Below are positions 7,313 through 18,526 of a stretch of DNA of 18,526 bases, piece after piece. Source of the DNA: Candidatus Eiseniibacteriota bacterium (GTDB lineage Bacteria > Orphanbacterota > Orphanbacteria > Orphanbacterales > Orphanbacteraceae); contig JAJRWB010000058.1 of NCBI GenBank assembly GCA_024276995.1, positions 1 through 18,526 of the forward strand. Direction: 5' to 3'. The notes beneath the pieces were generated by a model, which searched no databases, had not been told where the DNA came from, and was given only the letters and a program-made list of their open reading frames with translations. The position numbers and the translations under genes are program-made. How positions within the stretch are numbered: the first letter of the stretch is position 1; each line of letters opens with the position of its first letter.

Positions 7313-7999
7313 CTACCAGGACACGGCCACGTTCTCGAGGCGAACCAGGTTCGCGGCGAACTCCCTCGTCTCCACGAGATGGGCCGACGGAAGGAGCGTC
7401 CAGGGGACATTCGGCCCCGTTCTCGCATACGTATCGAGAAGGGTGGTACGGATCGTTTCGTCGTCCTGGTCAGCATCCCCGTCGCCGTCGAGATCGTCTT
7501 CGCTGTTCTCGTAGAACAGATTCAGTTCCACGGGAATCTGAGGATCGAATCGGAGTCCCGCCGGCGCGAGATGGATGAGGAAGTACACCGGGTCGACGGT
7601 GATCGTGATGTTCACCGTGTCCTTCTCGGTGATCGGCGTCCCGTCGGGCCAGGTAAGAAGCGAACCTTCGGGAATGACGATCTCCAGGAAATCGCTTCCT
7701 TTCACACCGGCTATTTCGTAATGGATTTCCCGCTTCACGTCGTCGTTTTTCGTGGCGGGGAAGGTGAGCGAATACGTTTCGAGAGAGGGAACCCCCATTC
7801 CCTGGGCGAGCATGTGGAGCGCCCCCCCCTTGCCTCCCATCGTTCCGTCCGGTTTCGTCTCTTCGGTCGAAACGTGCATTCGCGCCCTCTTTCCCGCTTC
7901 CACCGAAGCGCGGTCCGGCCCGACCGGCTTCGTTCCGTCCACACAACCGGCGGCGGCGAGAAGAACGGCCGCGATTGCGAGGTTCATTGATTTACCCAT
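7313..7999 (-). CDS. Small predicted lipoprotein with calcium-loop-like Asp-rich motif
   Basis: The 228-residue product starts at ATG 7999 after a GGGGGG ribosome site. The N-terminus (MGKSMNLAIAAVLL) leads to a lipobox AAAGC with Cys19, so it should be a lipid-anchored envelope protein. Residues about 75-165 alternate in a beta-rich pattern (EIVIPEGSLLTWPDGTPI, then NITITVD, then LRFDPQIPVELNLFYE) that resembles ZU5-like or similar sandwich folds. A DLDGDGDADQDD run at about 169-180 is a dockerin/EF-hand-type calcium loop. No enzymatic motif is seen. It overlaps the end of the activator gene by 8 bases and is followed 31 bases later by the TPR gene, so the three are probably cotranscribed. 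Function is unknown; an envelope sensor for the activator is only a guess. Confidence 0.75.
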   Translation of the reverse strand: MGKSMNLAIAAVLLAAAGCVDGTKPVGPDRASVEAGKRARMHVSTEETKPDGTMGGKGGALHMLAQGMGVPSLETYSLTFPATKNDDVKREIHYEIAGVKGSDFLEIVIPEGSLLTWPDGTPITEKDTVNITITVDPVYFLIHLAPAGLRFDPQIPVELNLFYENSEDDLDGDGDADQDDETIRTTLLDTYARTGPNVPWTLLPSAHLVETREFAANLVRLENVAVSW

Positions 8000-9353
8000 G
8001 GCTTTCCCCCCGTGTAACAGTGGATGACGACAGGTCGGGTCCAAGAAGGCGGCGGAGTCTCTTGCGCGAGATGTCGAGTCTTCTCGCCGCCTCGCTCCGG
8101 TTTCCCCTGCACAGTTCGACCATCGACCGTGCCGCCGCCGTAGTGATCGCATCGAGTCTCGCCGGGAAGGGAATCGGGCTTTCCTCCGATCCCTCCGGGT
8201 TGGTGAAAATCATCAGCTCCGCCGGGTCGAGTTCGCCCGGGGGCGAAAGGAGAAGAGAACGTTCGAGAGCGTTCTTCAGTTCCCGGATGTTGCCGGGCCA
8301 GTTGTGTCCGTGCAGGGCGCTGCGAACGGCGGCGCTCAGGTGGGGCGCCGGTACGCCGTGCTGTGCGGCGAGCTTCGCCAAGAGCGCACGGGCTATCGCG
8401 ATCACGTCGTCCCCCCTGTCGCGGAGCGGCGGAAGGGCGAGGGTGATCACGCCGATCCGGTAGTAGAGATCCTCGCGGAATGTTCCCGCCGCGATCGCTT
8501 CCTTGAGATCGCTGTTCGTCGCCGCCAGGATGCGGATATTCACATCCCTCGTGCGTGTGCCCCCCACGCGCCGGATCTTCCTCTCCTCGAGGGCGCGGAG
8601 GAGCTTCGCTTGGAGGTCCACCGGAAGCGTGCCGACCTCGTCGAAGAAGAGCGTCCCCCCGTCGGCGACCTCGAAGAGCCCCGGCTTCGAAGCGTGGGCG
8701 TCGGTGAACGCGCCCCGCTCATGACCGAACAATTCCGATTCGACGAGGTGCGCCGGAAGGGCGGAACAATTTATCGCAACGAACGGGGCGTTCCGGCGGG
8801 GGCCGCCCTTGTGGATCGCCTGCGCGAGAAGCTCCTTGCCCGTGCCCGTTTCGCCGACCAGGAGCGCTGTGGCGTCGCCGTGGCGAAGAATCCTCTCCGC
8901 CCTGGCGAGCACCGCCCGCAGGGCGGGACTGTCGCCCACGATAGTGGCGAAAGGATTCTCCTTCCTTCCCTCCCGCCCGGCGCGCCGGATCTCGTCGCTT
9001 CTTCTCCGGATCTCCGTGGCGAGAGAGTTTCTAAGGATCTCCACATCGCCGGGGAGGGCGAAATAGTCTTTCGCTCCCGCCCGGACGAGTTGCGCCGCGA
9101 TCCGGTGACCGGCATCGCTTCCCACGGCGAAGACGTCCGTCGCGTGCTGGCGCGATTCCCGTTCGAGCCACTCGAGAGCCTTGATTTCAACGCCGCCCGC
9201 CGAGAGAAGAAGAAGCGACGCGTCCCGGATCGATCCGGCGTTCTCACCGTCGCCCGCCACGCGAAACGGCACACCGAGGTCGGTTTCCAACTCCCGCCAT
9301 ATCGGAGAAAACTCCTTGCCCATTTCCACCACCCGGATGAACTGCCCTTCCAA
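7992..9353 (-). CDS. Sigma-54-dependent transcriptional activator (NtrC type) with degenerate receiver
   Basis: I chose TTG 9353 because AGAGGAGAGG lies just before it. GTG 9371 (six codons longer) and ATG 9323 are alternatives, but both have weaker ribosome sites. Residues about 1-120 look like a response-regulator receiver (a GAKDYFALP end is visible), but where the phospho-Asp should be it reads ASLLLLSAGG, so it is probably not phosphorylated. The AAA+ domain (about 135-370) has Walker A GETGTGKE at about 167-174, a GAFTDA sigma-54-contact loop at about 214-219 (usually GAFTGA), Walker B LFFDEVG at about 235-241 and FREDLYYR arginines near 292-299. A Fis-type helix-turn-helix (EAARRLDISRKRLRRLLG) lies near the C-terminus. 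It should drive ATP-dependent open-complex formation at -24/-12 promoters. Two such promoters lie in the gap upstream, pointing away from it. Confidence 0.93.
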   Translation of the reverse strand: MEGQFIRVVEMGKEFSPIWRELETDLGVPFRVAGDGENAGSIRDASLLLLSAGGVEIKALEWLERESRQHATDVFAVGSDAGHRIAAQLVRAGAKDYFALPGDVEILRNSLATEIRRRSDEIRRAGREGRKENPFATIVGDSPALRAVLARAERILRHGDATALLVGETGTGKELLAQAIHKGGPRRNAPFVAINCSALPAHLVESELFGHERGAFTDAHASKPGLFEVADGGTLFFDEVGTLPVDLQAKLLRALEERKIRRVGGTRTRDVNIRILAATNSDLKEAIAAGTFREDLYYRIGVITLALPPLRDRGDDVIAIARALLAKLAAQHGVPAPHLSAAVRSALHGHNWPGNIRELKNALERSLLLSPPGELDPAELMIFTNPEGSEESPIPFPARLDAITTAAARSMVELCRGNRSEAARRLDISRKRLRRLLGPDLSSSTVTRGESHG

Positions 9354-9472
9354 AGGTCCTCTCCTCTGCACGATCCGTGCCCGGTCGTGACAGCAATGAA
9401 ACGTTGATCCTCAACAGGTTGGATGGCTCAGTCAGAACATTGCGCCGGTTCGATTCGTTCCAGTCGACCCAT

Positions 9473-9672: not shown

Positions 9673-9688
9673 TGGCACTCCGTTTGCT
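9673..9688 (+). promoter_or_regulatory. Sigma-54 (-24/-12) promoter 1, facing right
   Basis: TGGCACTCCGTTTGCT matches the consensus TGGCAC-N5-TTGCW at every defined position, with GG and GC at exact spacing. Only the optional G after TGGCAC is missing. The start would be near 9699. No convincing coding gene follows for hundreds of bases, so the product may be a non-coding RNA or a long leader of the redox operon. Confidence 0.7.
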
Positions 9689-10264: not shown

Positions 10265-10280
10265 TGGCACGGGAATTGCG
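10265..10280 (+). promoter_or_regulatory. Sigma-54 (-24/-12) promoter 2, for the cytochrome operon
   Basis: TGGCACGGGAATTGCG matches TGGCACG-N4-TTGC perfectly with exact GG/GC spacing. Predicted start is near 10291, leaving a leader of about 77 bases before ATG 10368. The leader holds a small CCGTC/GACGG hairpin (10336-10349) just before the AGGAGG ribosome site (10355-10360). The activator gene diverges from this region and is the obvious candidate regulator. TGACC/GGTCA (10234-10238, 10252-10256) and AGGAT/ATCCT (10207-10220) inverted arms lie just upstream. Confidence 0.8.
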
Positions 10281-10367: not shown

Positions 10368-11414
10368 ATGGGTCGGTCTGTCGATCTTCGTGAAGACGAA
10401 GCCGATCAGGCGGTGATCGACCAGGTGGAAGTGGTCGTGGAAACGATTCCCGCCGTCGCATGCAATCCGTCCGATGTGTCCGCGCGAACCCGGAGTGTGT
10501 CCGGCGGGACACGCGAACGCGGTGCGAAGCGGGCGAAGAAGAACCTGATCCGAAAATTGACCGTTCCTCCCGCGCTCCTCCTCGCGGCGGTGAACATCGC
10601 TGGCTTCTCCTACTACCGCCTTTCTCTCGCGGAGAGAGTGGTTCATCCCCTCCATGCGCTGCTGAAACCTTCGGGTCCGGTAGGCCAGGGCGCCGGCGTG
10701 ATCGCGTTCCTCCTCTTCTCGTTCCTCTGGCTCTATCCCGTGCGGAAGAAATACGGCTTTTTATCGTTCACCGGGCCGATCCCGGTGTGGCTCGACGTGC
10801 ATATCTCGGCGGGGCTGCTCATACCCCTTCTCGGCGCCACCCACGCCGGCTGGCGTTTTCAAGGACTCGTGGGGCTCGGGTATGCCGCGATGTTCCTCGT
10901 CTGTTGCAGCGGCGTGGCGGGCCGGTATCTCTATCTTCGCATCCCCAGGACGAAGGAGGGGGTGGAGATGACCCTCGGAGAGATCGACAGGAAGCGCGGG
11001 GAAATGCTCGATCGCCTCGCTTCCACTACCGGGATGCCGGCGGCCGACCTCGAGGCGATTCTCGCCGTGAAGAAGGGACGGTTTCGGGGATTGGGCGTGT
11101 TCGGTACGTTCCGAGCGCTCGTGAGGGATGATTTCGCGCGCCGGCGGGCGGTGGGAAGGTTGCTGAAAGAGTGGAACGCCCGGGACGGGGTGTCCGGAGG
11201 GGCGGGGAAGGAGGGGAAGCGGGCATTCAGGATGGCGCTCAAGCTGGCGCGAAGGCAGATGTCTCTCGACCAGCAGGTTCGACTTCTCGAATCGACACAC
11301 GCGGTGTTCCGGTTCTGGCACGCGGCGCACAGGCCGGTGGCGATCGTCTCGTTCGCCGCCGTCGTGCTTCATGTCCTCGTGGTGACGGCGATGGGAGCCA
11401 CCTGGTTCTGGTAG
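10368..11414 (+). CDS. Membrane b-type cytochrome-like protein
   Basis: This 348-residue protein starts at ATG 10368, 7 bases after AGGAGG. About 60 hydrophilic N-terminal residues precede the membrane part. Hydrophobic spans lie at about 65-85, 107-124, 140-158, 166-187 and 323-343. Between the fourth and fifth spans is a basic, helical cytosolic-looking loop (about 190-315). Candidate heme ligands are His93, His96, His145, His159, His318, His321 and His335, several inside or at the ends of spans, as in two-heme b cytochromes and ferric-reductase-like proteins. No CXXCH motif occurs. It is the first gene of the redox operon, so it most likely passes electrons across the inner membrane between the Fe-S flavoprotein and the exported c cytochromes. 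Heme content is inferred from the histidines and context, and the family name is uncertain. Confidence 0.7.
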   Translation: MGRSVDLREDEADQAVIDQVEVVVETIPAVACNPSDVSARTRSVSGGTRERGAKRAKKNLIRKLTVPPALLLAAVNIAGFSYYRLSLAERVVHPLHALLKPSGPVGQGAGVIAFLLFSFLWLYPVRKKYGFLSFTGPIPVWLDVHISAGLLIPLLGATHAGWRFQGLVGLGYAAMFLVCCSGVAGRYLYLRIPRTKEGVEMTLGEIDRKRGEMLDRLASTTGMPAADLEAILAVKKGRFRGLGVFGTFRALVRDDFARRRAVGRLLKEWNARDGVSGGAGKEGKRAFRMALKLARRQMSLDQQVRLLESTHAVFRFWHAAHRPVAIVSFAAVVLHVLVVTAMGATWFW

Positions 11415-11423
11415 AGGTTCGGC

Positions 11424-12896
11424 ATGGGAATGCTGATCGCCACGGCCGCCTTTCTGGCGGCCACTGTCGTGGCGGTTCTGATTCATCTCAGGGCCCGGGG
11501 AACGTCTACGCCCGCTTCCGCGCCCCCGGCCGGTCCTCCCTGCCCCCGGTGCGGCGAGCCGGTTCCCGCGTCGGCGACATTCTGCCCCGGCTGCGGCGTT
11601 CCGACCCAAGTCTACGAGGTCGTGGGGGCGCCGATTGCCGCGGACGCCGGCGCGGACGGCGGTGGGGGAGAGGAGGGCGAACCGAGGATGCACGCCGTAG
11701 TGCGCGCCGATCTTTGCGTCGGCTGCGGCGTGTGCGTCCCCGCTTGTCCGGTGGAAGGCGCGATTTACATGGAGGGGAAGCTCGCCGTGGTGAACCGCTC
11801 CTTGTGTGTCGGCCACGGGAAGTGCGCCGAGGCGTGCCCGGTAGGGGGAATCCTGATGGCGGCGGGCGAAGCGGTGCATCAAGTGGAGGTTCCCGACGTG
11901 AACGGCCGGTTCGAATCGAATGTGCCCGGCATTTTCATCACCGGCGAACTCGGCGGGCGGGGGCTGATCAAGAACGCGGTGAACGAAGGGAAACTCGCCG
12001 TCGAAAGCATTGCCGGGGGGCTTTCGAAGGACACGGCGGAAGAGGAGGGGAAGGATACGGCGGGGGAGGACGACGGCGTGCTCGACGTGATCATCGTCGG
12101 TTCCGGTCCCGCGGGGTTGAGCGCCGGCCTGGAGGCGCACCGGCGCAAGATGCGCTACGCCATTCTCGAGCAGGGCGACCTGGCGGACACGATCCGGAAG
12201 TATCCCCGCCACAAGCTCCTCCTCGCCGAGCCGGTGAAGATCCCGCTCTACGGGGATCTGTGGGTGGCGGATGCGTCGAAGGAAACGCTGATCAGCATCT
12301 GGGAGACGATTGTTTCCAATACGGGTCTCAAGATCGAAACGAGGCGCCGCGTGGAGAATGTGAAGAGAGAGGACGACCACTTCGTGGTGGAAGCGGGGGG
12401 GGAGACATACCGGGGAAAGCGAGTGGTGCTCGCCATGGGGAGGCGCGGCACGCCGCGGCGTCTCGGGGCGCCGGGAGAAGAACTCGAGAAGGTGTTCTAC
12501 GACGTGGCGGAGATGGAGGAGTTCAAGGGGAGAAAGGTTCTCATCGTGGGCGGCGGCGACAGCGCCGTCGAGTCGGCCATCGGCATGGCGAACCAGGAGG
12601 GGGCCGAGGTGACGCTCAGCTACCGCGGCGACGCCTTCAAGAGGGTCAAAGAGAGGAACCGGGAGCGCCTCGACGAGGCGGTGAAGCAGAAGAAGATCCG
12701 CCTCCTTCTCGGCAGCGAGGTGAAGGAGATCACCGAAGCGAAAGTCGTTTTATCTATGAAGGATGGAGAGGAGACCCTCGAGAACGACAACGTGGTGATC
12801 CGGATCGGCGGCGAACCGCCCTTCCCGTTCCTCGAGAAGATCGGCGTTCGGATGGTGCGCAAGACCGTTCCCATCCCGGGAAGCGACGGGGGATAG
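11424..12896 (+). CDS. Membrane-anchored 4Fe-4S / FAD / NAD(P) oxidoreductase (thioredoxin-reductase-like)
   Basis: The 490-residue protein has one N-terminal span (about 3-21) followed by HLRAR, so the rest should face the cytosol. Next come a zinc ribbon (Cys40, 43, 54, 57) and a two-motif ferredoxin region. Motif 1 has Cys98, 101, 104 and 108. Motif 2 reads CVGHGKCAEACP, so His131 takes the place of the second Cys. Residues 160-196 (SNVPGIFITGEL, then GLIKNAVNEG) resemble the FAD-contact end of thioredoxin reductases but stand before, not after, the FAD fold. The FAD GSGPAG motif is at 226-231 and the NAD(P) GGGDSAVES motif at 376-384. The redox CXXC of true thioredoxin reductases is absent. 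It should move electrons between NAD(P)H, FAD and Fe-S clusters next to the membrane b protein, whose stop is 9 bases upstream. Confidence 0.88.
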   Translation: MGMLIATAAFLAATVVAVLIHLRARGTSTPASAPPAGPPCPRCGEPVPASATFCPGCGVPTQVYEVVGAPIAADAGADGGGGEEGEPRMHAVVRADLCVGCGVCVPACPVEGAIYMEGKLAVVNRSLCVGHGKCAEACPVGGILMAAGEAVHQVEVPDVNGRFESNVPGIFITGELGGRGLIKNAVNEGKLAVESIAGGLSKDTAEEEGKDTAGEDDGVLDVIIVGSGPAGLSAGLEAHRRKMRYAILEQGDLADTIRKYPRHKLLLAEPVKIPLYGDLWVADASKETLISIWETIVSNTGLKIETRRRVENVKREDDHFVVEAGGETYRGKRVVLAMGRRGTPRRLGAPGEELEKVFYDVAEMEEFKGRKVLIVGGGDSAVESAIGMANQEGAEVTLSYRGDAFKRVKERNRERLDEAVKQKKIRLLLGSEVKEITEAKVVLSMKDGEETLENDNVVIRIGGEPPFPFLEKIGVRMVRKTVPIPGSDGG

Positions 12897-12900
12897 GGCG

Positions 12901-14751
12901 ATGTTTCTCGGCGGGGGAGAGATGTGCGCGCGGCCGGTGGTGTTCGCTCTTCTTCTCACCGCATGGTGCGTCGCGGCGGCGGCGGCCCACGCCCAGTTCG
13001 CCCCCGGTCCGTTGTCGAAAGCGCACCGCGAGCTCGACGGGACGCTGCGGTGCACGAAGTGTCACGCCGTGAAGCGGGGGAAGTCGATGGACGGAGAATG
13101 CCTCGCGTGCCATGACGGTATCCGCGCCCTCGACGAGGCGGGGCGGGGACTGCACGGAGAAAAAAAGCGGAAGGAGTGCGCCGCCTGCCACAAGGAGCAC
13201 GCCGGCGTCGATTTCGAACTGATCGACACGGCGTTTCTCGATCCATCATCATTTGATCATTCGATGACCGGCTGGAACCTTAGGGGGAAACATGTCGATG
13301 CGTCGTGCGAGAAATGTCACAAGGGCGAGTTTCTCACCGATGCGGTGAGGAGGCGTCTCCGGTCGAAGGGAGGAACGCGTGCTTGGATCGGTCTCGAAGG
13401 GAAGTGCGCCGTCTGCCACGACGATCCCCACTTGGGGAAGCTCGGAATCGACTGCGGTTCTTGCCATTTCGAGACCGGTTTCCACGATGTCGTGCGCGAC
13501 GGCTTCGATCATTCGAAGACCTCCTGGGCGCTTCGAGGGGCTCACGGCCGCGTCGATTGCGCCGCCTGCCATGATTCCACAAGCGCCTGGGGAGCGAGGC
13601 CGCCGCATGATCGGTGCGGCGTGTGCCACGTCGATCCGCACCGGGGGGCGGCGACGATCGCCGGCGCGGTCGTCGACTGCAACGCCTGCCACGACGAGGA
13701 GACTTTCCGCCCCTCGACGTACACCGTGGAGCGCCACCGGAACGCGCCGTTCCCTCTCGAGGGGAAACATGCGGCGGTGTCATGCGACCGGTGTCACACG
13801 CTCACGTCGCGCGGCTCGATCACCGTCGATCTCGCCGATGCCGGCGTTCTTCTTCGAAGGGAGCACGAACTTTGCTCCGACTGCCACGCCGATGCCCATA
13901 ACGGCCAGCTCTCCTCCCGGCGAGACGGGGGGGAGTGCGGGTCGTGCCACACCGTCGATGGGTGGAAGTCGACCACCGTTACGGTGGAGTCGCATTCGGA
14001 TTTCTCCTTTCCCCTCGTCGGGGCGCACGCCGATGCGAAGTGTTCCGCGTGCCACGGCCCGGACAGGCCGGGGCTCCCCCCCCTCCCCGGCACCGATCGA
14101 CTCGGACGGGCGAGGGTCGCCCTGGTTATCGAAAAGAAGAACTGCTCCGACTGTCACGTCGATCCTCACGACGGCCGGTACTCCGCCGGCGCGACCGGCG
14201 CGGGGGCCGGGAGGGTGGGTGGTTCGGCGGGGGGGGCGAAGAAATGCGGCGAATGCCATGGCTCGGACAGATTTCGTCCGGCGATGATCGGCGTGAACGA
14301 CCATGATACGTACGTCTTCCCGCTCAAGGGCGCTCATCGGGCCGTCCCCTGCTTCGAATGCCACAGGGAACTGATCAGGAGCAGCCGGTCCGGAACGCTT
14401 CTTCTCGCCGGGTGGACCGGCAAGGCGATCGACTTCCGCGGAGAATTCGGAAAATGCGACGACTGTCATGGCGATGCCCACGCCGGGCAATTCACATTGT
14501 CGTGCGACGGTTGTCACGGCCAAGACCGGTTTCGTCCGGCGGTGAATTTCGATCACGACCGGGATTCGACGTTTCCTCTCAAGGGCGGTCACGGGAAGGT
14601 GAAGTGCGAAAAATGCCACAGCCCGTTCAAGACGCCGGACGGGGAAACGATCATCCGTTACAAACCGTTGAGCCGCAAGTGCGAGAGCTGTCACGGCGAT
14701 CGCGAAATCGATCGCCTTGTCGCCGGCGATGAGATGGTTCGAAGGGATTAG
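12901..14751 (+). CDS. Exported 20-heme c-type cytochrome
   Basis: ATG 12901 gives 616 residues and has a GGGGGA ribosome site 7 bases upstream. ATG 12922 is an alternative that would trim seven residues from the signal peptide. A Sec signal ends near AAAHA-QF. I count 20 CXXCH motifs, and no other large domain is visible. Several heme sites are preceded by a recurring FPL-x-G-x-H or W-x-L-R-G-x-H element that supplies a distal histidine, as in cytochrome c3-like and outer-surface conduit cytochromes. The same FPL-x-G-H element recurs in the giant cytochrome downstream, so the two share a fold and probably an ancestor. It lies 4 bases after the flavoprotein stop. A role as a periplasmic relay between the inner membrane and the larger cytochrome is inferred. 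One insert near residues 390-460 is Gly/Ala-rich and heme-poor. Confidence 0.93.
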   Translation: MFLGGGEMCARPVVFALLLTAWCVAAAAAHAQFAPGPLSKAHRELDGTLRCTKCHAVKRGKSMDGECLACHDGIRALDEAGRGLHGEKKRKECAACHKEHAGVDFELIDTAFLDPSSFDHSMTGWNLRGKHVDASCEKCHKGEFLTDAVRRRLRSKGGTRAWIGLEGKCAVCHDDPHLGKLGIDCGSCHFETGFHDVVRDGFDHSKTSWALRGAHGRVDCAACHDSTSAWGARPPHDRCGVCHVDPHRGAATIAGAVVDCNACHDEETFRPSTYTVERHRNAPFPLEGKHAAVSCDRCHTLTSRGSITVDLADAGVLLRREHELCSDCHADAHNGQLSSRRDGGECGSCHTVDGWKSTTVTVESHSDFSFPLVGAHADAKCSACHGPDRPGLPPLPGTDRLGRARVALVIEKKNCSDCHVDPHDGRYSAGATGAGAGRVGGSAGGAKKCGECHGSDRFRPAMIGVNDHDTYVFPLKGAHRAVPCFECHRELIRSSRSGTLLLAGWTGKAIDFRGEFGKCDDCHGDAHAGQFTLSCDGCHGQDRFRPAVNFDHDRDSTFPLKGGHGKVKCEKCHSPFKTPDGETIIRYKPLSRKCESCHGDREIDRLVAGDEMVRRD

Positions 14752-14761
14752 GGGTGAAGTG

Positions 14762-17700
14762 ATGGGGAAGATGAGGAGTGGAATCGGGTGGTGTGCGGCG
14801 CTTCTATTCGTCGGGGTTCTTCTTCCGGAAGGGGCGGTCGCGGGAAACTACGTGAAAAACCCCCACGGAAGGGTCGGCGAGGAGTGCGTTATTTGCCACG
14901 GTCCGGAAGGGTGGACCCCTGCGAAGATCAGCGAACACTGGGATCACGACAAGTACGATTTCCCCCTCGAAGAAGGGCATAACGGCGTTCCGTGCAGGAG
15001 CTGCCACGAGTCGCTCGAGTTCAGTAAGGCGTCTACCGAGTGCGCCGGCTGTCACGCCGACGAGCATGGCGGAGAATTCGGCGACCGTTGCGGGGCGTGT
15101 CACACGACATCCTCCTTCTCGGACGAGTCGGCGTTCCGCCGGAGCCACCAGCTGACGCGATTTCCCCTCACAGGCGCCCACACGACGGCCGATTGCGAAT
15201 CGTGCCATCCGGCGGCGACCGGCGGAGAAGCGACGTACGTGAACACGCCGGACGAATGCAGTTCGTGTCACGGTGCCGATGCGCGCGCCGTGGGTGATCC
15301 GGATCACGGGTCGGCCGGATTCGGCGATGCGTGCGACGAGTGTCACGGCACGGCGAGTTGGTCCGGCGCTTCGTGGGAACATGACACATTTCCCCTCGCC
15401 GCCGGCCACGCCTCGCTCGAGTGTTCGCAATGCCACGCCGATGGAACGTACGCCGGCACATCGTCTGAATGCTACTCGTGTCACGGCGCCGATTATGACG
15501 CCGCCGTCGAGCCGCGCCATACCGACGGTTTCCCCCTCGACTGCACGGAGTGCCACGTAACGACCGCCTGGGAGGGGGCGGCCTTCGTACACGAGAAGTT
15601 CGAACTCACAGGCGGTCACGACGGCGTGACGTGCGGACAATGTCACAGCAACGGAGTTTATGAGGGTAGCGATTCGGACTGTTTCGCCTGCCATGCCGAC
15701 GATTTCCAGTCCACCCTCGATCCCGATCACGAGAAAGCAGATTTCGATATCGCGTGCCTCGAGTGTCACACCATGGACCGGTGGGAGGGAGTCGACTTCG
15801 AACACCCCTTCTTCGCCCTCGAGGAGGGACACGCCGGTCTCGAGTGCATCGATTGTCATGAAGCAGGGAGCTATCACGGCCTTTCCAGCGGGTGCTTCAC
15901 GTGTCATAAGAACGACTATGAGGGGGTTGTCGAGCCGGTGCACACCTCCGGTTTCCCCGAAGACTGCACCGAATGCCACTCCTCGGCTTCGTGGACGGAC
16001 GCATCGTTCAGCCACGACCGGTTCTCCCTGACGGCGGGTCATTCGGGTGTGTCGTGCGGCGCGTGTCACCAGGACGGTTTCTATTCCGGAACGCCGACCG
16101 ACTGTTTCTCGTGTCATGGCGATGACTACGCGGCTACCGCCGACCAGGTCCATGGCTCGGGATTTCCGACCGACTGCACGACCTGCCACAACACCGGCGG
16201 ATGGACGGGGGCGGCGTTCGATCACGGGTCGTTCCCCCTCGATCGGGGCCATTCGCAGCTCGAGTGCTCGGCGTGTCACGGCAACGGCGTGTTCGCCGGA
16301 ACGCCGGCCGACTGCTTCTCGTGCCACGAAACCGACTACGCCGGCGTTGCCGAACCTGATCACGGCGCGGCGGGCTTTACTACCGATTGCGCGATGTGTC
16401 ACACCGGCGACGACTGGACCGCGGCCGGTTTCGACCATACGTTCTTCCCCCTCACGGGCGGTCACGGGTCGTCGTCATGCTCGGCGTGTCACGGCGACGG
16501 CGTGTTCGCCGGAACGGCCAACGACTGCTATTCGTGCCATGTGTCCGACTACGCTGGGACCACCGACCCGGCGCATGGCGAGGGCTTCCCCACCGACTGC
16601 TCCCGCTGCCACGACACGGGAAGCTGGCGAGGTGCATCGTTCGAACACGGTTTCTTCCCACTCACCGGTGGCCATGGCGGTGTGTCGTGTTCAGCGTGTC
16701 ACGCCGACGGTGTGTACCAGGGAACGGCGGCGGAGTGTGTCGCCTGCCACCGGGGGAACTACGACGGTACGAACGATCCCGACCACGCCCTCGCCGGCTA
16801 CGGCACCGATTGCGCATCGTGCCATGGCACGGACGTGTGGGCGGAGGCGTCCGTCTCTCACGAGCGGTTCCCCCTTACGGGCGCTCATGCCGGAGCTTCC
16901 TGCGCGTCGTGCCATGGCGACGGCGTCTATGAGGGCCGTCCGTCCGACTGCTTCTCGTGTCACGGGGACGACTACGCCGGTACCACCGATCCGGCGCACG
17001 GCGACGGCTTCCCGAAAAGCTGCGCCACATGCCATGGGACCGACCAGTGGAACGGAGCCTCGTTCGCCCACGACCTCTTCAGCCTCGATGCGGGACATAG
17101 CGATGTAAGTTGTTCGCAATGTCACACCGGCGGCGTCTACGCCGGTCTTCCGAACGACTGTTTCTCGTGTCACGAAGACGACTACCGGTCGGTTTCGGAA
17201 CCGGATCACGCGCAGGCGTCGTTCAGCACGACGTGCACCGACTGCCATTCGATGAACGATTGGAGCGGGGCGACGATCGACCACGGTTTCTTCCCCCTCG
17301 AGGCGGGCCACTCCGGTCTCGACTGCGCGAGTTGCCATGCCGGCGGCGTCTACGCCGGTCTTCCGAACGACTGTTTCTCGTGTCACGAAGACGACTACCG
17401 GTCGGTTTCGGAACCGGATCACGTCGCGGCCGGTTTCCCGACCGACTGCACCGACTGTCACGATGCGGCGACCTGGTCTCCCGCCACGTTCGACCACTCG
17501 TTCTTCGATCTATCCGCCGGCCACGGCGGTCTTTCGTGCAACCGGTGTCACGACGACGGCGTCTACGCCGGAAGATCGACCGATTGCGCCTCGTGCCACC
17601 AGGCGGACTATAACGGCACCTCCGATCCGAACCACGCGGCGGCGGGTTTCTCATTGGACTGCAGTCGATGCCATACGCCGTCGGGCTGGACGCCTTCCAC

Positions 17701-18526
17701 CGTCGATCACGGTTTCTTCCCGACCGGAGGGGGGCATTCGGCCCTTTCGTGCGCCGACTGTCACGGCGACAGTCCGTACAACACCCTTTCGAGCGAATGC
17801 GCATCGTGCCACCAGGGAACCTACGATGCTACGACCGATCCGATCCATGCCGCCGCGGGCATTTCGAACGCCTGCGCCCAGTGCCATACGGTGAACGGCT
17901 GGGCCGGAGCCTCTTTCGATCATCGATTCTTCAAGCTCGTCGACGGTCACGGTGGTCTGTCGTGCAACACGTGCCATGTTGGGGGCGTGTACGAGGGGAT
18001 GGCGACCGACTGTTACTCATGCCATGGAAGCGACTACAACCGATCGAGCAATCCCGATCACGTCGCGGCCGGTTTCGGCACCGACTGCACCGGATGCCAC
18101 GGGATCACGTCGTGGAGCGACGGGCGGTACGACCACAACGCCTTCCAATTGAGCGGGGGGCATAGCGGCTTATCGTGCAACTCATGTCACGGGGGAGGAG
18201 TGTACGGAGGTGCGCCCGCCGACTGCTTCTCGTGCCACCAAGCGGACTACGACGGTACGACCGATCCGAACCACGGTGCGGCGGGTTTCCCGACCGACTG
18301 CACGCAGTGCCACACGGTGAACGGCTGGGCCGGGGCGAATTTCGATCATAACGCCTTCCCGCTGAACGGCGGACACGGCGGTCTATCGTGCGCGCAGTGT
18401 CACGCCGGCGGCGTCTACGCGGGGACATCGTCCGACTGCTTCTCGTGCCACCAAGCGGACTACGACGGCACGACCGATCCGAACCACGGTGCGGCGGGTT
18501 TCCCGACCGACTGCACGCAGTGCCAC
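14762..18526 (+). CDS. Giant repeat-built multiheme c-type cytochrome, at least 52 hemes, 3' end outside window
   Basis: From ATG 14762 (GGGGTGA upstream) the frame stays open for 1255 codons to the last base, so the protein is incomplete. I translated it throughout and found no stop. A signal peptide (MGKMRSGIGWCAALLF, cleaved near AVA-GN) directs it out of the cytosol. There are 52 CXXCH motifs, about one per 24 residues. They form 17 full three-heme units of about 70 residues plus the first site of an eighteenth. Each unit runs CXXCH, a Trp or Phe, an F-x-H element, an FPL-x-x-GH element, CXXCH, a GVY-x-G turn, CXXCH, DY, and D/E-P-x-H. The three extra histidines can serve as second ligands for the three hemes. 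No other domain is visible. It is most likely an electron wire or store in the periplasm or on the cell surface. The cell location and final length are unknown. Confidence 0.95.
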   Translation, partial: MGKMRSGIGWCAALLFVGVLLPEGAVAGNYVKNPHGRVGEECVICHGPEGWTPAKISEHWDHDKYDFPLEEGHNGVPCRSCHESLEFSKASTECAGCHADEHGGEFGDRCGACHTTSSFSDESAFRRSHQLTRFPLTGAHTTADCESCHPAATGGEATYVNTPDECSSCHGADARAVGDPDHGSAGFGDACDECHGTASWSGASWEHDTFPLAAGHASLECSQCHADGTYAGTSSECYSCHGADYDAAVEPRHTDGFPLDCTECHVTTAWEGAAFVHEKFELTGGHDGVTCGQCHSNGVYEGSDSDCFACHADDFQSTLDPDHEKADFDIACLECHTMDRWEGVDFEHPFFALEEGHAGLECIDCHEAGSYHGLSSGCFTCHKNDYEGVVEPVHTSGFPEDCTECHSSASWTDASFSHDRFSLTAGHSGVSCGACHQDGFYSGTPTDCFSCHGDDYAATADQVHGSGFPTDCTTCHNTGGWTGAAFDHGSFPLDRGHSQLECSACHGNGVFAGTPADCFSCHETDYAGVAEPDHGAAGFTTDCAMCHTGDDWTAAGFDHTFFPLTGGHGSSSCSACHGDGVFAGTANDCYSCHVSDYAGTTDPAHGEGFPTDCSRCHDTGSWRGASFEHGFFPLTGGHGGVSCSACHADGVYQGTAAECVACHRGNYDGTNDPDHALAGYGTDCASCHGTDVWAEASVSHERFPLTGAHAGASCASCHGDGVYEGRPSDCFSCHGDDYAGTTDPAHGDGFPKSCATCHGTDQWNGASFAHDLFSLDAGHSDVSCSQCHTGGVYAGLPNDCFSCHEDDYRSVSEPDHAQASFSTTCTDCHSMNDWSGATIDHGFFPLEAGHSGLDCASCHAGGVYAGLPNDCFSCHEDDYRSVSEPDHVAAGFPTDCTDCHDAATWSPATFDHSFFDLSAGHGGLSCNRCHDDGVYAGRSTDCASCHQADYNGTSDPNHAAAGFSLDCSRCHTPSGWTPSTVDHGFFPTGGGHSALSCADCHGDSPYNTLSSECASCHQGTYDATTDPIHAAAGISNACAQCHTVNGWAGASFDHRFFKLVDGHGGLSCNTCHVGGVYEGMATDCYSCHGSDYNRSSNPDHVAAGFGTDCTGCHGITSWSDGRYDHNAFQLSGGHSGLSCNSCHGGGVYGGAPADCFSCHQADYDGTTDPNHGAAGFPTDCTQCHTVNGWAGANFDHNAFPLNGGHGGLSCAQCHAGGVYAGTSSDCFSCHQADYDGTTDPNHGAAGFPTDCTQCH
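14885..18526 (+). repeat. In-gene tandem array of three-heme coding units, about 204-243 nt, settling at 213 nt
   Basis: Unit starts, taken at the first Cys codon of each triplet, are 14885, 15089, 15332, 15542, 15755, 15965, 16175, 16388, 16598, 16811, 17021, 17234, 17447, 17660, 17873, 18086, 18299 and 18512. Early units differ in length (204, 243, 210), the middle ones are 210 or 213, and the last seven are exactly 213 nt (71 codons). The array continues past the window. Confidence 0.93.
17127..17423 (+). repeat. 84-nt identical direct repeat, copies one unit apart
   Basis: Bases 17127-17210 and 17340-17423 are identical over 84 nt and 213 nt apart. A second pair, 18219-18313 and 18432-18526, differs at one base in 95 (ggt versus ggc, silent). 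Other units are clearly diverged, so these copies are recent duplications or gene-conversion tracts. Confidence 0.9.

Follow-up and report, generated by a model that had tools for sequence, protein, structure and literature searches.

The PCC3 systems are defined by four genes, which encode a porin, an outer cytochrome, a periplasmic cytochrome and an inner-membrane protein, and they were initially proposed for Fe(II) oxidisers (He, 2017; PMC5566968). Their outer cytochromes carry a median of 34 hemes (63 in Amphritea and 85 in Agromonas), with 22–39 amino acids per heme, and a 'molecular wire' hypothesis was put forward for them; the periplasmic cytochromes carry a median of 21 hemes, and the inner-membrane protein, of about 300 amino acids with an SGXXG and two WX3HX13H motifs, was proposed to be a diheme cytochrome b contacting quinone (PMC5566968). 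In the Gallionellaceae, PCC3 outer cytochromes contain 10–35 hemes and were modelled as long and linear (PMC10734462). Here we describe a giant multiheme cytochrome gene that reaches the end of an 18,526-nucleotide stretch of DNA (the window), which is the whole contig JAJRWB010000058.1 (C40) of a Candidatus Eiseniibacteriota genome (G000; 3.76 Mb, 81 contigs, 96% complete). The protein is of a known kind, and its five-gene cluster is a variant of PCC3, likened to the proteobacterial systems by their described features; the giant cytochrome probably serves a transenvelope electron conduit of PCC3 type as its outer cytochrome, the one that varies in length.

The gene lies on the forward strand at positions 14762–18526, and the window holds 1255 of its 1339 codons and 52 of its 55 CXXCH motifs. 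Translation of this part gave 1255 residues without a stop, and the motif count agreed with that of a preliminary description of the window, which had also reported the open frame; in 2000 shuffles of the completed protein CXXCH occurred 0.76 times on average and at most 4 times, far from the 55 of the actual sequence. The same description saw no end to the frame only because the contig stops there. The final 141 bases of the window (18386–18526) match the end of contig C53 (32781–32921, minus strand) without a difference, the remaining matches in the genome being repeats at about 70%. When the two contigs were joined, the frame was kept and 84 residues were added before a TGA, 255 bases past the window on the minus strand of C53 (gene end C53:32526). 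Extended in this way, the gene encodes a protein of 1339 amino acids with 55 CXXCH. All its cysteines are within CXXCH motifs except C11, in the signal peptide, and 58 histidines lie outside the motifs, about one distal ligand per heme.

On sequence grounds the join is credible, because the overlap is exact from end to end, the reading frame is the same on both contigs, the residues added from C53 form a three-heme C-terminal cap as in most relatives, and a barrel gene starts 25 bp after the giant cytochrome on C53, as it does in relatives. As a check on the assembler's word length, a 141-bp overlap was looked for at the opposite end of C40 as well, and none was found. In the joined gene no 141-mer occurs twice; exact repeats of 60–84 bp are present, one of them across the break, so that a repeat copy may have been lost; the direct path gives 55, hence a minimum if the assembler dropped copies. 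In the relative G004 the gene is broken in the corresponding part, and a 45-bp overlap there would yield 49 CXXCH, a less certain figure.

The N-terminus (MGKMRSGIGWCAALLFVGVLLPEGAVAG; residues 1–28, 14762–14845, forward strand) resembles a signal peptide when inspected by eye, as had been proposed, and no lipobox was seen. A seven-heme N-terminal module follows (14846–15391, forward strand), with CXXCH spacings of 36-16-16-35-21-25 that are similar in most of 22 family proteins, and then an array of 15 three-heme repeats of 70–71 amino acids (about 213 bp) each (15392–18526, forward strand), of which the last unit, like the three-heme cap, ends on C53. Spacing within the 15 units is 16-25-30, the middle step being 24 or 25. 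The cap closes the protein with a spacing of 35-15-29 (YFPIYSGKH...WNDCGDCH...FSCLGCH...ACLSCHPDGRE); it is present in most relatives, the ends being different in L016, L095, L099 and L105 among others. Domain searches matched the giant cytochrome to Pfam Cytochrome_C7 (E 4e-67) and to the NCBI model TIGR04257 nanowire_3heme (74.1 bits vs a curated cut-off of 40), and the repeat profile matched structure 3ov0 (GSU1996, a single-chain triheme 'nanowire'). Judged by these matches, the repeat unit is c7-like.

The outer cytochromes of the family span 9–76 CXXCH while their end and repeat spacings stay similar (frames in this comparison were measured from stop to stop, and their lengths overstate the proteins); the 76 motifs of L110 lie within one 1954-codon frame. 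Amino acid identity between repeats is 0.47–0.52 inside their own protein vs 0.33–0.46 against other proteins, and super-repeats of four units in L013 and of two units in L014 were observed. From this similarity and the super-repeats we infer that the outer cytochrome would grow by tandem duplication between fixed ends. The L110 protein (L110:11845–17706, genome G287) has 22 near-regular repeats, followed at the C-terminus by a tail that lacks hemes and is rich in Arg, Ser and Pro, and a 61-heme cytochrome of L013 repeats the cap module internally.

The heme number does exceed that of OmcS, OmcZ and the Mtr proteins, as first noted. The protein is not a giant without precedent, since 63 and 85 heme sites had already been reported for PCC3 outer cytochromes (PMC5566968). 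One chain of serial three-heme units makes the suggested single-chain heme wire plausible, and that idea too is already published for PCC3.

The giant cytochrome is the fourth gene of a cluster in the order membrane protein, flavoprotein, 20-heme cytochrome, giant cytochrome and barrel, the first four being read in one direction with gaps of 9, 4 and 10 bp between them. Leaving aside the flavoprotein, the order inner-membrane protein, periplasmic cytochrome, outer cytochrome and porin is that of Slit_1446–1449 (PMC12016527). The first gene (10368–11414, forward strand) encodes a 348-amino-acid protein resembling inner-membrane b-type cytochromes, in which motif alignment revealed two WX3HX13H and an SGVAG, the published PCC3 signature (PMC5566968); WX3HX13H twice and SGXXG were found in all 10 aligned membrane proteins, this one and nine homologues. 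The 20-heme cytochrome (12901–14751, forward strand; 616 amino acids), predicted to be the periplasmic partner, has 20 CXXCH vs about 21 hemes in PCC3. Its homologues have 20 in most clusters, 19 in L010, 23 in L068, L110 and one L013 copy, and 26–29 in L106–L109. The repeat-rich giant cytochrome, predicted to lie outside, has 24.3 amino acids per heme, within the PCC3 range. The barrel on C53 is homologous to the one that follows the outer cytochrome in relatives. AlphaFold modelling of the L012 homologue from five sequences (pLDDT 71.5, pTM 0.56) predicted about 22 long strands besides a small beta domain, a large barrel as in PCC3, and in Foldseek the model matched outer-membrane porins best (E 3e-9; the TM-scores were low). 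The barrel matched no Pfam family, hence not the MtrB/PioB family.

Two features distinguish this cluster from the PCC3 described so far: its occurrence in Bacteroidota, Calditrichota and the phylum of the source genome, and an added Fe-S/FAD/NAD(P) oxidoreductase, which the four-gene descriptions in the literature lack. This flavoprotein (11424–12896, forward strand; 490 amino acids) was recognised by its Fer4 and Pyr_redox_3 matches and its motifs, and has an N-terminal hydrophobic stretch. At L105 and L110 the flavoprotein and the membrane domain are in one open frame. These fusions suggest that the two proteins act together and that electrons would enter from an NAD(P)H-type donor rather than from quinone. 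The second Fe-S motif of the flavoprotein reads CxxHxxCxxxCP, with His replacing the usual Cys, in 21 of 22 family members; perhaps the Fe-S cluster is His-ligated. At L106:5489–7489 a relative of the membrane protein is fused behind Fe-S cluster motifs, in place of the flavoprotein.

The five-gene set was found in the relatives G002 and G004, in Calditrichota (L012, L015), Bacteroidales (L013), Melioribacteraceae (L014) and Rhodothermaceae (L016), and, with 23 + 40 hemes, on plasmid pEMTOL02 of the isolate Emticicia oligotrophica (L068), a complete plasmid sequence. The plasmid location suggests that the cluster may be mobile. A second copy in the source genome (L010) has 19 + 19 hemes. Gene order is rearranged at L010, L015 and L016, where the flavoprotein gene comes after the barrel. 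When 290 genomes from across the bacteria were searched with a profile of the 20-heme protein, homologues were found in 30; among 17 loci fetched after this search, the membrane protein was recognised at 14 (twice fused to the flavoprotein) and the flavoprotein at 12. At L098, on a short contig, the membrane protein was present and no flavoprotein was found there. L017 (Omnitrophica), a weak multiheme match at 22%, was omitted.

An 18-kb stretch of Bacteroidales DNA (L013:2165–16139) encodes three outer-type cytochromes (61, 34 and 16 CXXCH) and two inner ones (20 and 23). On the plasmid of Emticicia, a cultured member of the Bacteroidota, a cytochrome-assembly gene accompanies the complete cluster, and a GW-dipeptide protein is encoded directly after the barrel; in the window an SH3-domain protein is encoded upstream, at 123–869. 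The source genome contains cytochrome c assembly genes, and additional clustered multiheme cytochrome genes at L062, L063 and L064 (C67, C2). Loci on Methylophaga and Alteromonas plasmids (L111 and L112, respectively) were considered as proteobacterial PCC3 and rejected: there, relatives of the membrane protein have a 2Fe-2S protein and a small cytochrome as neighbours, joined by hydrogenase genes at the Alteromonas locus. Going by these neighbourhoods, the membrane module serves other systems too.

The cluster was also compared with other multiheme systems. GSU1996, GSU0592 and GSU2210 of Geobacter (PMC10138318) share with the giant cytochrome a single chain of c7-type three-heme units, the 3ov0 profile match and TIGR04257; however, they have 12 or 27 hemes instead of 55, are described as periplasmic, and are not reported together with a porin and an inner-membrane protein. 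MtrCAB and MtoAB likewise combine a porin with periplasmic and outer multiheme cytochromes, but use 10-heme subunits and a different inner-membrane entry, and the barrel described here has no MtrB-family match. The OmcS, OmcE and OmcZ filaments are many-heme chains outside the cell, as the giant cytochrome may be; unlike it, they are polymers of small subunits, and none has a convincing sequence match to the cluster proteins (the repeat profile found no Omc filament protein at E ≤ 0.01, and the 20-heme profile reached OmcS only at E 0.005). Compared by description, the 24-/49-heme pair beside an OmbB-like porin in Burkholderiales (PMC7399161) is similar in that two large cytochromes precede the porin and the heme number of the larger one differs among close relatives.

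A path compatible with the observed gene set and its wide conservation, with the motifs and the architecture of the repeats, and with the fusions would be as follows. Electrons from an NAD(P)H- or ferredoxin-type donor would enter the membrane-anchored Fe-S/FAD protein, pass to the two b hemes of the inner-membrane protein and from there to the 20-heme cytochrome, cross the periplasm along it, and leave through the outer-membrane barrel to the 55-heme cytochrome outside the cell. The seven-heme N-terminus and the three-heme cap may dock at the porin and at the tip or a partner, and the run of three-heme repeats would set the reach, which lineages could lengthen or shorten by tandem duplication. 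GSU1996 spans about 1 nm per heme; if extended at that rate, 55 hemes would reach about 50 nm.

Some results weigh against this proposal. At the four divergent loci L106–L109, neither a flavoprotein nor an outer cytochrome was recognised. Fold prediction, another step called for in the preliminary description, was carried out by AlphaFold on a 10-heme stretch of repeats and gave a poor, low-confidence model (pLDDT 63.5, pTM 0.39), for which Foldseek found no match. In Sideroxydans ES-1 both PCC3 clusters were down-regulated on Fe(II), an expression pattern that does not support their having a part in Fe(II) oxidation (PMC8788666) and leaves the role of PCC3 itself unproven.

As to direction, export to minerals or partners is somewhat favoured over uptake. 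The conduit might instead run inward, with Fe(II), minerals or another cell as the source of electrons and the flavoprotein making NAD(P)H, a reading that differs from export in direction alone. The initial proposal of PCC3 for Fe(II) oxidisers (PMC5566968) speaks for it, and a flavoprotein that has an NAD(P) domain could work in reverse; the response of ES-1 to Fe(II) (PMC8788666) speaks against it, and uphill reduction of NAD(P) would require energy, for which no source was seen in the cluster. We regard uptake as possible, although rather unlikely.

It is less probable still that the giant chain remains periplasmic and acts there as an electron buffer, a store or capacitor. Such a role was proposed for GSU1996 and GSU2210 (PMC10138318), and the c7-type units shared with GSU1996-type proteins and the type-I-like signal peptide without lipobox would fit it; yet the gene is linked to that of a barrel and a near-constant 20-heme cytochrome in clusters of many lineages, and 55–76 hemes, if extended, would exceed the width of the periplasm. 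A false repeat array or a false join to C53 is very improbable, since, despite the exact repeats, a break inside a repeat and a break in the same part of the G004 gene, the cap and barrel gene were recovered as in relatives and the architecture is uninterrupted in single contigs, including the complete plasmid sequence (40 hemes) and the 76-heme frame.

A divergent gene for a sigma-54 activator adjoins the cluster (7992–9371, minus strand; Sigma54_activat, E 5e-66), and an activator 57% identical is also beside the cluster in the relative G004 (L060:7498–8829). A scan with the consensus TGGCAC-N5-TTGCW found two sigma-54-like -24/-12 sites on the forward strand, one with all 11 consensus bases (9673–9688) and one, TGGCAC-N5-TTGC, with 10 of 11 (10265–10280); 0.38 sites of at least 10/11 are expected by chance on both strands of the window. 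Both are in the 996-bp gap between the activator and the cluster, oriented into the operon. In G002 a 10/11 sigma-54-like site was found near the start of the membrane-protein frame.

Four aspects of the cluster seem to be new: the additional flavoprotein, which in two lineages is fused to the membrane protein; the occurrence in Calditrichota, Bacteroidota and the phylum of the source genome; the near-constant inner cytochrome, usually of 20 hemes, beside an outer one of 9–76 hemes with conserved ends; and the two sigma-54-like sites before the operon. More tentatively, the cluster could be a widespread PCC3 variant that acts as a length-tunable heme cable fed by NAD(P)H. A flavoprotein-cytochrome b unit, in some cases a single polypeptide, would feed a periplasm-spanning cytochrome of near-constant length and an outer cable with fixed end modules, its length depending on how many three-heme cassettes lie between them.

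Since its description in 2017, PCC3 has had neither a demonstrated function nor a demonstrated site of electron entry, and the conserved flavoprotein, with its fusions, offers an entry point that can be tested. An outer cytochrome that varies eightfold between fixed ends, next to an inner one of near-constant size, is a natural length series, in which the effect of heme number on how far a single covalent chain reaches, how much it stores and what current it carries can be studied. An isolate, Emticicia oligotrophica, has the complete set on a plasmid, which makes the question open to bench work.

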